Positions 8,945-22,633 of a DNA stretch of 64,000 bases are shown piece after piece; position 1 is the stretch's first letter, and every line of letters begins with the position of its first letter. The notes under the pieces are model-generated. The model ran no database searches. It had not been told where the DNA came from and saw only the letters and a list, made by a program, of their open reading frames with translations. Source of the DNA: Hyphomicrobiales bacterium (lineage in GTDB: Bacteria; Pseudomonadota; Alphaproteobacteria; Rhizobiales; Rhizobiaceae); the NCBI GenBank assembly GCA_900465685.1, contig UEGR01000021.1, forward strand, positions 98,302-162,301, read 5' to 3'. Made by a program: the position numbers and the translations under genes.

Positions 8945-9049
8945 AAGCCGCTCTTATCATGGGCAAATCCCAGCTGGAAGTCTGCTCTGTCCCAGTTTGT
9001 ATCGCTTTTGCCTCTCTTGCCCTTCATGGCCTGACATATTAATGTCGCA

Positions 9050-9152
9050 ACGCTCTAACGGGGTGCCATTTGTTCCCATGAATGGCTGAGAGGTTTTTCA
9101 AAAAACCAACCCGCTGAACCTGATCCGGTTTGCACCGGCGGAGGGATTAGAT
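9050..9152 (+). promoter_or_regulatory. TPP riboswitch (THI element)
   Basis: The conserved core is clear: GGGTGCC near 9061, GGCTGAGA (9084-9091), then CTGAACCTGATCCGG (9113-9127) and GCGGAGGGA (9138-9146). It lies about 110 bases before the thiB start on the same strand. Binding of thiamine diphosphate would shut off thiBPQ. Downstream GCTGCT (9153-9158) can pair with AGCAGC (9181-9186), which is followed by TTTT, a possible terminator platform. Confidence 0.95.
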
Positions 9153-9259
9153 GCTGCTCTGCGGCACGATCCCGAAAAGTAGCAGCTTTTCGGTTATTGT
9201 TGTGCTCCAGACCCCAAGCGGCGCTAAATCCTTTTAACTTTATGAAAGGACGTGCCGTT

Positions 9260-18772: not shown

Positions 18773-21700
18773 TTACTTCTTCATCTGCTCCTTGAGAGCC
18801 AGAAGCTTGGCGAACGGCGAATCGGGATCGATCCGTGCGGGGCGTTCCTGCTCGAAGCGCTTGTTGCCCTGCGATGCGCCATGAGGGGCACCATGCTCGC
18901 GCTTTGGCTGGCGGTCACGACCGCCGCCGTCACGGGGCTTGCCCTTAAAGCCTTCGCGCTTGCCCTGACCTTCGCCGTCATGATTGTGACGCTTGTTCTT
19001 GTCGAAACGCTTGCCGCCACGCGCATTCTGCTCGTCGCCGCCTTCGGACTTGCGCGCCTCGCCCTGCTGACCACGATTGTTCTGGCCACCATGACGCTGA
19101 CGGTTGTTCTGTTCCTGATTGCGGTTACGACCTTCGAAACGGCCCTGACGCCACAGGAGAACCGGCTTCGGCTCTTCAACAACCGCGTCACCGGCAGGTG
19201 CAGCGGCTTCGGCAACGGGGGCTTCCGCAGCTGGTGCTGGCTCTTCAGCCTTCACTTCTACAGCGACAACCGGTGCTGGCACTGGTTCTGCAGCAGGCAC
19301 GGCAGGCTTTTCAGCTTCCGCTGCAACAGCGGAAACGGCGACGCCTGCATCCTTGGCAGCAGCTTCGGCAGCAAAGGCATCCAGTTCTGCAAGCTTGGCC
19401 GCAACATCGGCTGCTTCCATCGCCTCATGGCGATAGCCCAGGCTCTTGAGGATTTCTTCCATGTCTTCGGTGGTCGCACCGAGGATCGACATCATGGCAG
19501 GCGTGACGATGAAACGTCCGCCGTCATAAGCGCCATCCGGACGAACACCCGAACCCGGACGCCAGGCCAGAGCCGGACGGATGAGATCGGCAAGACGTTC
19601 CAGAATGTCGATACGAACTGCACGACGGCCAAGCACGCGATAGCCTGCCAGACGGTAGAACATCGGATCGAAAGCCGGATCGACGACAACCGACGTACGA
19701 CCAGCAGCCAGAACATTGACCACATCGCCGTAACCGGCACGCTCGCGGCCATCGTTCTTCAAGGCCCAGAGCAGCGTGATGAGACCGGCAGGAGCCGGCT
19801 TCAGCAGCATGGGCATGAAGACGTGATAGGCACCGAAACGCACGCCGAGACGACGGAGCGCCGCACGCGAATCTTGATCGAGACCGCGTACTTCCTCCAC
19901 CACCTCACGGCGCTGGAGAATACCGAGGTTCTCGACGATCTGGAAAGCCAGACCGCGCGTCATGCCGGTCAGCGCGTCTGCACCAGCCAGATCGGTCAGG
20001 GGCTTCAAAACGGTTTCGATGTGATGCGCCACGAAACGGTCAATGCGCGCAGCGACCTTGTCCCGTGCGGGACCGGTGAGCTGTTCGTCGGCAAGGATCA
20101 CCGTGCGCGGCTTCAGAATGTCGTCACCTGCAACCAAAGTTGCGACGGTCGCACCGACCCAGCGCAAGACGCCGTCCGAACCAAGCGCGAAGTCTCCGTT
20201 GGGAGCAGCCGCAAAGCGCTCCGCACGGCGATCGAACTCGGCGGCCAGCGCCTTTTGCGCAGCCGTCTTCACTGCCTTCGCGTCCGGCCCCTCGGCCTGG
20301 ACGTCGGCGGTGAAACGGAATCCTTCCAGTTGCCCAATATTGTGGCCTTCGACACTCACGTCTCCGGCCGGGCTGATTTCTGCTTCAAGCATGGCATTCT
20401 CTCTCAGGCGCCTCATAAGCACGCTTGTCCTGCGGTCTACAAAGCGTTTCGTCAACCTTTCATGCAGCGCGTCGGACAATCTGTCCTCTATTTCGCGCGT
20501 CTTTTCCTGCCAGTGTGTCGGATCGGCAAGCCAACCGGGCCTATGCGACACAAAAGTCCAGGTTCGAATTTGCGCCACGCGGTGCGACAGAGTGTCGATT
20601 TCCCCCTCTGTACTGTCGGCGCGGCGCACCTGTTCGCTCATATAATCTTCATCGACGCTCCCTCGGCGCACTAGATCCTGATAGATAGACGCAATGATAT
20701 CGGCATGTTGTGCCGGTGCGATCTTACGATAATCGGGAAGCGCACAGGCATCCCACAAAAGTTCAATTCGCGCCGGCGTTGTCGCAAGGCGCACAATCTC
20801 TCCGTCTTTCGACAGATTTTCAAGCGCCTGCTGGTCAACAGCCGGCAAAGCCTTGGCAAGCCCCTCGACCGGGGCCGGGGTTTCCAGTGATCGGCGCAGT
20901 GCCTCAATCGACGAGAAGTCGAAACGCTCCGTGCGCCATTGCAGCACTTTCACCGGATCGAAATTATGCGCTTCCACCCGCTCGACCAGTTCGTCGTCGA
21001 AGGGCTGCACCTGCCCCGTCACACCAAATGTGCCGTCGCGCAGATGGCGACCGGCGCGACCGGCGATCTGCCCCACTTCGGCAGGCGTGAGATCACGGAA
21101 CTGATAGCCATCGAACTTACGGTTCTGCGCGAAGGCCACATGATCGACATCGAGATTGAGGCCCATGCCGATGGCATCTGTCGCCACAAGAAAATCTACG
21201 TCGCCCGACTGATAAAGCTCGACCTGCGCGTTGCGCGTGCGCGGCGACAAAGCGCCCATCACCACAGCAGCCCCGCCGCGTTGGCGACGGATCAACTCGG
21301 CAATCGCGTAAACCTCATCGGCAGAAAATGCGACGATGGCAGACCGGTTCGGCAGGCGCGTGATCTTCTTGGAACCGGCATAGGCCAGATGCGACAGGCG
21401 CGGGCGTGTTACCACATTAATGCCGCGCAGGAGTTTTTCCAGAATGGTGCGCATGGTCGCGGCACCGAGCAGAAGTGTTTCCTGTCGTCCGCGCAGATGT
21501 AAAATACGGTCTGTGAAAATATGTCCGCGTTCAAGATCGCCAGCGAGTTGCACTTCGTCGATGGCGACGAATGCCACATCGGTGCGGCGCGGCATGGCTT
21601 CCACAGTGCAAACGGAATAACGCGCAGTGGGCGGGACGATCTTTTCCTCGCCGGTGACCAGCGCGACATTAGCCACGCCGACCCGTTCGACGACACGATT

Positions 21701-21871
21701 GTAGACCTCGCGCGCCAGAAGGCGCAGCGGCAGGCCGATCATGCCGCTCCCGTGCGACAGCATACGCTCGATTGCGAGATGGGTTTTGCCGGTATTGGTT
21801 GGCCCCAGCACCGCAGTCACGTCGCGGCCGCTCAGGGTCAGCGGCAAATCATGGGCAGGGCGTTGGTTCAT
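18773..21871 (-). CDS. Suv3-like superfamily 2 helicase with long low-complexity tail, 1032 aa
   Basis: DExH-type RNA/DNA helicase related to mitochondrial Suv3. It carries GPTNTGKTHLAIE (motif I), AIDEVQLAGD (motif II, DEVQ), VATDAIGMGLNL and QIAGRAGR (motif VI). The C-terminal 180 residues are Ala/Glu/Pro-rich and then Arg/Gly/Asn/Gln-rich, likely disordered and RNA-binding. The ATG at 21871 (MNQRPAHDLPLTLSG) was chosen over the 21946 frame start. The S4 protein follows after 1 base. Role in RNA turnover is inferred from Suv3. Upstream lies an unusual 760-base regulatory-looking region. Confidence 0.92.
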   Translation of the reverse strand: MNQRPAHDLPLTLSGRDVTAVLGPTNTGKTHLAIERMLSHGSGMIGLPLRLLAREVYNRVVERVGVANVALVTGEEKIVPPTARYSVCTVEAMPRRTDVAFVAIDEVQLAGDLERGHIFTDRILHLRGRQETLLLGAATMRTILEKLLRGINVVTRPRLSHLAYAGSKKITRLPNRSAIVAFSADEVYAIAELIRRQRGGAAVVMGALSPRTRNAQVELYQSGDVDFLVATDAIGMGLNLDVDHVAFAQNRKFDGYQFRDLTPAEVGQIAGRAGRHLRDGTFGVTGQVQPFDDELVERVEAHNFDPVKVLQWRTERFDFSSIEALRRSLETPAPVEGLAKALPAVDQQALENLSKDGEIVRLATTPARIELLWDACALPDYRKIAPAQHADIIASIYQDLVRRGSVDEDYMSEQVRRADSTEGEIDTLSHRVAQIRTWTFVSHRPGWLADPTHWQEKTREIEDRLSDALHERLTKRFVDRRTSVLMRRLRENAMLEAEISPAGDVSVEGHNIGQLEGFRFTADVQAEGPDAKAVKTAAQKALAAEFDRRAERFAAAPNGDFALGSDGVLRWVGATVATLVAGDDILKPRTVILADEQLTGPARDKVAARIDRFVAHHIETVLKPLTDLAGADALTGMTRGLAFQIVENLGILQRREVVEEVRGLDQDSRAALRRLGVRFGAYHVFMPMLLKPAPAGLITLLWALKNDGRERAGYGDVVNVLAAGRTSVVVDPAFDPMFYRLAGYRVLGRRAVRIDILERLADLIRPALAWRPGSGVRPDGAYDGGRFIVTPAMMSILGATTEDMEEILKSLGYRHEAMEAADVAAKLAELDAFAAEAAAKDAGVAVSAVAAEAEKPAVPAAEPVPAPVVAVEVKAEEPAPAAEAPVAEAAAPAGDAVVEEPKPVLLWRQGRFEGRNRNQEQNNRQRHGGQNNRGQQGEARKSEGGDEQNARGGKRFDKNKRHNHDGEGQGKREGFKGKPRDGGGRDRQPKREHGAPHGASQGNKRFEQERPARIDPDSPFAKLLALKEQMKK

Positions 21872-22074
21872 GCCAATAATAGAATTCCCGGTGCAGGCAC
21901 CCCAACATGCAATTGGGAGGCCGATTGTCGTGTCTTGCGATAGCACTATACGACCTTGGCCGAAAGCGCTCCTGTTAAGTTTGAACCACCCGCGATTTTA
22001 AAATAGGCAGCCCGACATTTTTTACAAATGGCCGATCTCAGCGAACGACCCGATTTAACGAATAGAACGACTCT

Positions 22075-22230
22075 GGAACGAATCGGCTACGAATCGCTGA
22101 CTCTGATTCCTTCGCCTTTTGTTCACGGCAACATATGGTAACCGGATTGTCGATAGCCACCATATGCTGAATCTCATAGATGCGACGTCCCAACATAAAC
22201 AGAACAGAACGCGATTGGCGTTAACTTTTG
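22075..22230. repeat. direct repeat unit 1 (156 bp)
   Basis: Starts with GAACGAATCGGCTACGAATC and ends with TTGGCGTTAACTTTTG. Shares colinear anchors with unit 2: paired GAATC sites 11 bases apart, TTTGTTC, two CATAT-centred sites, and the GGCGTTAAC end. The interior has diverged. Confidence 0.65.
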
Positions 22231-22271
22231 CCAGAAGCGCGTCAACAGCTTATGACAGCACTTTGAGCAGT

Positions 22272-22287
22272 TTAAAGAAAACTTAAC
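22272..22287 (+). promoter_or_regulatory. candidate CtrA box (TTAA-N7-TTAAC)
   Basis: The sequence TTAAAGAAAACTTAAC matches the alphaproteobacterial CtrA consensus exactly. It lies between the two repeat units, about 400 bases upstream of the helicase start. Binding is inferred from the motif only. Confidence 0.45.
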
Positions 22288-22356
22288 AATTCCTAATAGT
22301 TGGTTATCGAAAATCAAGTCGCGAAAGCCATTTTCATTAACCTTCAGGCCAAAGCC

Positions 22357-22513
22357 GGAACGAATCGGCGACGAATCGGTGATTGATCAATTTTCTCTCT
22401 TTGTTCTCACCATATCTGGTAGGCTTTCACCAAAGCGCACCATATTGGAACATCGATTACCGCAACGATACACCCGAAAACCGGACAGAGAAGCCGTTTG
22501 GCGTTAACCTTTG
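22357..22513. repeat. direct repeat unit 2 (157 bp)
   Basis: Starts with GAACGAATCGGCGACGAATC and ends with TTGGCGTTAACCTTTG. Start-to-start distance from unit 1 is 282 bases. Confidence 0.65.
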
Positions 22514-22570: not shown

Positions 22571-22605
22571 ATAAAAAGGCAGGCTGCGGAAACCCACAGC
22601 CTGCC
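22571..22605 (-). terminator. intrinsic terminator of the thiolase gene
   Basis: GGCAGGCTG (22578-22586)/CAGCCTGCC (22597-22605) arms. On the minus strand the stem is followed by TTTTTAT. It lies about 30 bases past the thiolase stop. Confidence 0.85.
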
Positions 22606-22633
22606 CGAAAGATAAAGCCTGATCGGAAGCAGA

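Follow-up and report, generated by a model that had tools for sequence, protein, structure and literature searches.

A tandemly repeated, conserved non-coding module upstream of a Suv3-like RNA helicase gene in Hyphomicrobiales, with SOS-type and CcrM/GcrA-type sites

Two copies of a unit in the helicase-thiolase gap

The DNA analysed in this study, hereafter the window, is a stretch of 64,000 nucleotides from a Hyphomicrobiales bacterium (assembly GCA_900465685.1, contig UEGR01000021.1, positions 98,302 to 162,301 of the forward strand). Between the ATG of a Suv3-like RNA helicase gene, at 21871, and the stop codon of a thiolase gene (22634; identified by Pfam), both on the minus strand, it has a gap of about 763 base pairs (bp) which carries two diverged copies of a non-coding unit. 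The helicase is taken, by resemblance, to be mgpS, for which PMC4941405 and PMC4070974 give the designations SMc03877 (S. meliloti) and BMEI0275 (B. melitensis).

An earlier note on this DNA had described a diverged direct duplication of 156 bp in a gene-free gap of some 760 bp, with shared anchors in the same order at similar offsets. This description proved correct. The two segments, 22075-22230 and 22357-22513, are present as it gave them, and a repeat search of the window recovers the same two ends. Their global alignment scored 36. When the second unit was shuffled 1000 times with its dinucleotides preserved, the mean score was -29.6 (standard deviation 6.0, maximum -10) and no shuffle approached 36; the local alignment score was also 36, the maximum among shuffles being 16. 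The left edge of the conserved unit lies further out than 22075 and 22357, with TTAAC at about 22053 and 22336. When the whole genome was searched with a profile of the unit (R1, see below; E up to 10), the two array copies alone were found, both in this gap.

The same pattern is common to 23 relatives. Used as a DNA query, the gap matched the genome itself and 23 of 23 relatives of the same genus, together with 1 of 16 genomes outside it, and helicase and thiolase flank the gap in all 24 genus genomes. In the alignment of these orthologous gaps, 28 of 34 columns were invariant in the left core of unit 1 and 32 of 46 in that of unit 2, whereas the fillers did not have a single invariant column (0/61, 0/31, 0/99 at 22232-22330 and 0/36). 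The start-to-start distance of the units is 282 bp in 18 of the 24 genomes and 281-284 bp in all of them, within gaps of about 590 to 850 bp. The duplication is far older than the earlier note had supposed, and the selection on a cis-acting element that it proposed is borne out by anchors that are kept while the filler drifts, in the genus, order-wide and beyond the order.

Distribution and anatomy of the module

The wider searches relied on two profiles. For each unit, the training set of R1, a sequence-only profile, comprised 20 of the 24 genus members, with L002, L003, L007 and L012 dropped as near-duplicates, and one unit from another family was added. R2 was trained on 105 matches from named helicase loci. 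Within the order, R1 matched 115 of 150 genomes at E 0.01 and R2 matched 116 of 150 at E 0.05, the latter in 68 of 87 genera and with 1-6 matches per genome. The class search gave matches in 44 of 289 genomes at E 0.05, where about 14 are expected by chance; 28 genomes of other alphaproteobacterial orders matched below 1e-5, and the class-wide claims made here rest on these, given that weaker matches may be chance. The unit is present even in a genome of 1.4 Mb, where its G+C content is 28%. No paper describing this element was found in the open-access literature searched, subscription journals being mostly outside that search.

The position of the unit with respect to the helicase gene is also conserved. 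At 62 of 80 named helicase loci, including those of Sinorhizobium meliloti (strain 4H41, locus L087), Rhizobium johnstonii 3841, Agrobacterium vitis, Mesorhizobium and Bradyrhizobium, one to four units lie upstream of the gene, and all 105 matches are on the strand opposite to it. Among loci taken from the genome profile searches, which are the best-scoring ones, the helicase adjoins the unit at all 29 that were fetched from other genomes of the order, with the units pointing away from it. The class search contributed 29 loci, 2 of them from the same order, and at 27 the helicase again stands beside the unit; the exceptions are G342 and G217, the latter with a LolA-like gene where the helicase would be.

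Column counts were made over 150 units, the best of 162 R2 matches at 97 chosen loci, and they lean towards the profile. The conserved module is about 110 bp long and has the core GAACRAA..CGAATCR..NTTC-N7-GTTC..CNANATNTNG. Its parts follow each other as a TTAAC left flank, GAAC, GAACRAA, CGAATCR, TGAC, NTTC-N7-GTTC (the right-hand box, exact as GTTC-N7-GTTC in 8 of 146 units), the palindrome CNANATNTNG and a second CNANAT site. Tandem copies are spaced about 200-295 bp apart across loci, in a list of spacings that may be off by 11 bp owing to its regular-expression anchor. In the 62 named loci with units, GTTAAC occurs 66 times and TTAACC 72 times, against shuffled means of 4 and 10, respectively. 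In 8 of 10 genomes the half pattern GTTCNCN{1,2}CNANATNTNG is more frequent than its reversed control, and in the genome of the window 9 occurrences were found against 2 for the control, 2 of the 9 being the array units. This excess is a hint of further sites, from which no regulon is claimed. Additionally, GAATCAGCAACGAATC stands beside CATATG on contig C12 of the same genome (L033 1501-1516), just 5' of a gene with a signal-peptide-like start, and is a possible related single site.

At the core column, CGAATC was present in 148 of 150 units and the next base was a purine in all 150; scored by pattern in a fixed slice, CGAMTCR, the complement of YGAKTCG, was found in 146 of 150. YGAKTCG was described by Haakonsen et al. 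2015 (cited in PMC7987155) as an extended motif at the methylated promoters that GcrA activates in Caulobacter. GANTC itself occurs 553 times in the 62 named loci, about three times the shuffled mean of 178. At some GANTC positions the middle base varies and the remainder is kept, which is expected if methylation sites are under selection, and the GANTC that ends the CACCATATGCTGAATC site differs in this way in the relative L004 (GAGTC); the core site, always with A (149 of 149), does not follow this behaviour. GcrA (PF07750) was detected in 148 of the 150 order genomes, that of the window included, and a control of this family on 14 genomes gave matches in Caulobacter and, unexpectedly, in Sulfolobus. 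With GcrA in 148 of 150 genomes and no R2 match to the unit in 34 of 150, the absence of GcrA was rejected as the cause of the absence of the unit.

The alphaproteobacterial SOS box is GTTC-N7-GTTC. Its complementary form, GAAC-N7-GAAC, was found in the helicase-proximal unit of 60 of the 62 named loci and in 5 of 43 distal units; over the 150-unit set, no more than 77 of 141 units have it in complete form. In the genome of the window, the lexA and recA genes (found by the LexA and RecA Pfam families) have the upstream boxes GAACAAGACTGGAAC and GAACAATAATGGAAC, which are of the same GAAC-N7-GAAC form. Since the N7 spacer of the 60 proximal boxes takes 30 different sequences and a GANTC lies inside it in only 38 of 62 proximal units, it is the GAAC pair and not a methylation site that is kept there.

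The coordinates of the features are provided in Table 1. The block at 21938-21982, conserved apart from the units, is a possible promoter of the helicase gene. The left-flank box of unit 2 resembles a CtrA half-site. A terminator-like hairpin with a T run lies at 22577-22606 of the window (-), on the thiolase strand only.

Table 1. Features of the helicase-thiolase gap and the adjoining helicase gene (window coordinates; genus alignment, 24 genomes; unit counts, 150-unit set)
Feature	Position	Strand	Basis
Suv3-like RNA helicase gene (putative mgpS), neighbour in most loci examined	18773..21871	-	Pfam DEXQc_Suv3 and Helicase_C
Separate conserved block in the unit 1-helicase interval, TATAGT on helicase strand	21938..21982	-	16/45 columns invariant in 24 genomes
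Unit 1, helicase-proximal, whole	22053..22178	+	Aligned in 24/24 genus members; 60/126 columns invariant
SOS (LexA)-type box of unit 1, GAAC-GACTCTG-GAAC	22065..22079	+	Form as at lexA/recA of own genome
CGAATCG of unit 1, near-invariant CcrM site, complement of GcrA extended motif	22090..22096	+	Unit counts
Right-hand NTTC-N7-GTTC box of unit 1, CTTC-GCCTTTT-GTTC	22110..22124	+	NTTC-N7-GTTC in 99/146 units
Palindrome CNANATNTNG of unit 1, here CAACATATGG	22129..22138	.	Exact in 111/140 units
Second CNANAT site of unit 1, CACCATATGCTGAATC, GANTC at its end	22158..22173	+	Genus alignment
Right-flank box of unit 1, GTTAACTTTTG	22220..22230	+	Genus alignment; GTTAAC/TTAACC enrichment near units
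Unit 2, distal, whole	22335..22445	+	50/111 columns invariant in 24 genomes
Left-flank box of unit 2, TTAACC	22337..22342	+	Genus alignment; enrichment
Inner GAAC of unit 2; outer GAAC replaced, SOS-type box incomplete	22358..22361	+	GAAC-N7-GAAC missing in 38/43 distal units
CGAATCG core of unit 2	22372..22378	+	Unit column counts
Right-hand box of unit 2, TTTC-TCTCTTT-GTTC	22392..22406	+	Genus alignment; unit counts
Palindrome CNANATNTNG of unit 2, here CCATATCTGG	22410..22419	.	Genus alignment; unit counts
Right-flank box of unit 2, GTTAACCTTTG	22503..22513	+	7/11 columns invariant

A proposed regulatory module of mgpS and the alternatives to it

With moderate confidence, we interpret the two units as copies of an ancient multi-input cis-regulatory module of mgpS, with SOS and CcrM/GcrA inputs, which has been amplified in tandem. 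This interpretation is based on the fixed architecture, the conservation in the order and the class, the position upstream of mgpS in most loci examined, the lack of RNA-type covariation, the SOS-type box of the proximal unit and the CcrM site at the core. LexA would bind GAAC-N7-GAAC and let go after DNA damage, and CcrM would methylate CGAATCR, which GcrA would read together with sigma-70 RNA polymerase, in such a way that the output would depend on replication and cell-cycle stage. A further protein, still to be named, would bind the CNANATNTNG palindrome. The tandem copies would add GcrA/CcrM sites and sites of the further factor upstream, and LexA control would remain in the proximal copy. 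Every binding event, as well as the direction of control, is here a prediction from the DNA sequence.

The earlier note had offered three suggestions, a tandem small-RNA pair, a regulator array and a chromosome-maintenance site, among which the regulator array fits best, given an SOS-type box and a CcrM/GcrA-type site in a fixed architecture at one gene. Its statement that the element is neither a transposon nor coding also stands. Within the unit, a column of a single base is occupied in 114 of the 150 copies and empty in the others, which excludes a reading frame, and neither an integron attC nor a mobile element was recognised, the 150 units showing no covariation of the attC-repeat type.

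It must be considered that several observations weigh against this interpretation. At E 0.1 and with either profile, 18 of the 80 named helicase loci have no unit, and 17 of these have enough upstream DNA; likewise, the 34 order genomes mentioned above lack a match although GcrA is nearly universal. Several units in other orders have an imperfect SOS-type box or none. The extended GcrA motif is reported as not found in Brevundimonas subvibrioides (PMC7987155). On neither strand does a sigma-70-like -10 element stand at a fixed offset from the unit (at most 11 of 81). Within the GTTC box a -35-like hexamer, loosely defined, does recur (47 of 81), but no -10 is suitably spaced from it, so that the unit itself is probably not a canonical promoter. 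Genes lie between the units at three loci (L092, L095 and L097, those inspected for this), with units 0.8 to 1.7 kb apart; by eye, those of L092 are a hydrolase-like gene and one resembling a Gly-zipper lipoprotein. Finally, units detached from mgpS keep their anchors, and these conserved detached units, together with the genes between units, tell against a function limited to the promoter of mgpS. The same observations could also result from control of the genes now adjacent, or from recent descent.

These detached units count in favour of a reading that we consider unlikely, in which the unit is an autonomous chromosomal site, dense in methylation sites and bound by proteins, that acts in titration, sequestration or chromosome organisation and is linked to mgpS merely by descent. 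In three genomes of one genus (G057, G155 and G128) a unit adjoins a GST gene, which in G057 is assigned by Pfam and lies some 1.5 Mb away from mgpS and its unit. Among the three genomes 53 of the 64 unit columns are invariant, compared with 79 of 200 on the far side of the GST gene. G049 and G174 have three units on a contig other than that of mgpS, which keeps a single unit there; 16, 14 and 16 of 17 anchor bases agree in the three detached units, against 308 of 706 columns outside them, and a DUF3108 gene is near them in G049 and that of ribosomal protein L28 in G174. In G125 and G094 the unit stands beside a capsid-like gene (L150 2959-3038 and L154 3118-3201), which is confirmed by Pfam in G125 only, where a head-tail connector gene then follows; this cluster has the look of a gene transfer agent. 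A position 3' of a GST gene was seen for a detached unit or array in two families (L257 3754-3864 and L157 2915-3195), perhaps as the result of one old rearrangement.

The threefold GANTC density also agrees with an autonomous site, as does the low number of loci per genome, with just two units in the genome of the window. Exact DnaA boxes (TTATCCACA) within 150 bp of the units were found in 2/62, 4/30 and 1/22 loci, one in each and without clusters, where the shuffled means were 0.1, 0.0 and 0.0, and the 7 of 114 loci exceed them. Nevertheless, the other 107 loci have no exact DnaA box, the parS core was found in none of the 114, and no GC-skew switch indicative of an origin or terminus was seen within the window. 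Moreover, the linkage to mgpS in most loci examined, in the order and beyond it, is tight for a freely placed site. The chromosome-maintenance site of the earlier note is of low probability; the conserved detached arrays and the excess of DnaA boxes speak for it, the small number of those boxes and the lack of a parS core against it. An extension of this idea, which we likewise regard as improbable, is that of an undescribed chromosomal DNA site in much of the Alphaproteobacteria, where damage signals (LexA) and replication signals (CcrM) would meet in a rigid module with a further protein at CNANATNTNG, independent of the helicase and kept when a rearrangement detaches it.

It is rather doubtful that the unit is a GcrA/CcrM element alone and that its SOS-type box is an accidental reading of the GAACRAA/TTYGTTC half-sites of another factor. 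The inner GAAC and the GTTC are indeed conserved even in distal units without a complete GAAC-N7-GAAC, and the partial completeness of the box over the 150-unit set points in the same direction. However, its concentration in proximal units (60/62 against 5/43), with a drifting spacer, and its likeness to the boxes at lexA and recA in this genome speak against that reading.

With respect to RNA, no Rfam family was found in the gap at E up to 5. The sole Rfam match in the window is a TPP riboswitch aptamer at 9049-9163 (+), with 73.6 bits. The RNAalifold consensus had 7 pairs, none of them with two-sided change, and none of the 25 strongest column pairs over the 150 units resembles base pairing; an RNA structure was rejected on these grounds. 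Terminator-like sites in the direction of the units were found by a strict scan beyond the distal unit in 1 of 62 loci (shuffled mean 0.3) and between units in 0 of 28, a scan that Rho-dependent ends would escape. Although the tandem spacing within a long intergenic region and the rigid, promoter-like distances would suit tandem small-RNA genes with the conserved block as promoter and 5' end, this suggestion of the earlier note is very improbable in view of the missing Rfam match, the lack of covarying pairs, the scarcity of terminators and a conservation that stops where the body of the transcript would be expected.

Regulatory non-coding DNA of bacteria tends to change rapidly, and it is unusual for a module of about 110 bp to be kept in fixed architecture upstream of one gene across orders of a class and to be multiplied in tandem. 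If SOS control is joined to CcrM methylation in it, the module would be a concrete site for studying how DNA damage and replication state are coupled in Alphaproteobacteria, and the question would arise of why an RNA helicase related to mitochondrial Suv3 is the target. In addition, the CNANATNTNG palindrome points to a DNA-binding protein yet to be named.

Comparison with known systems

Chromosomal sites of the datA, DARS and parS type are non-coding, few per genome and composed of multiple sites. The module resembles them in these three respects and differs from them in its ties to one gene, the lack of a parS core and the exact DnaA box in 7 of 114 loci only. With the GcrA/CcrM-dependent promoters of Caulobacter it shares CGAATCR, the complement of YGAKTCG, and the GANTC methylation site, whereas it has no recognisable -35/-10 pair, occurs in tandem copies and contains extra conserved sites of another factor. 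Several close GANTC sites 5' of alphaproteobacterial genes are also a trait of the MucR-shielded hypomethylated GANTC clusters (PMC5172544); the module differs from these in a sequence architecture conserved across orders. In relation to the alphaproteobacterial SOS (LexA) operators, the differences are that the box sits within a larger fixed module without a fixed -10 and that a second, imperfect NTTC-N7-GTTC box is inverted, while the proximal GAAC-N7-GAAC is like them and is spaced as at lexA and recA in its own genome.
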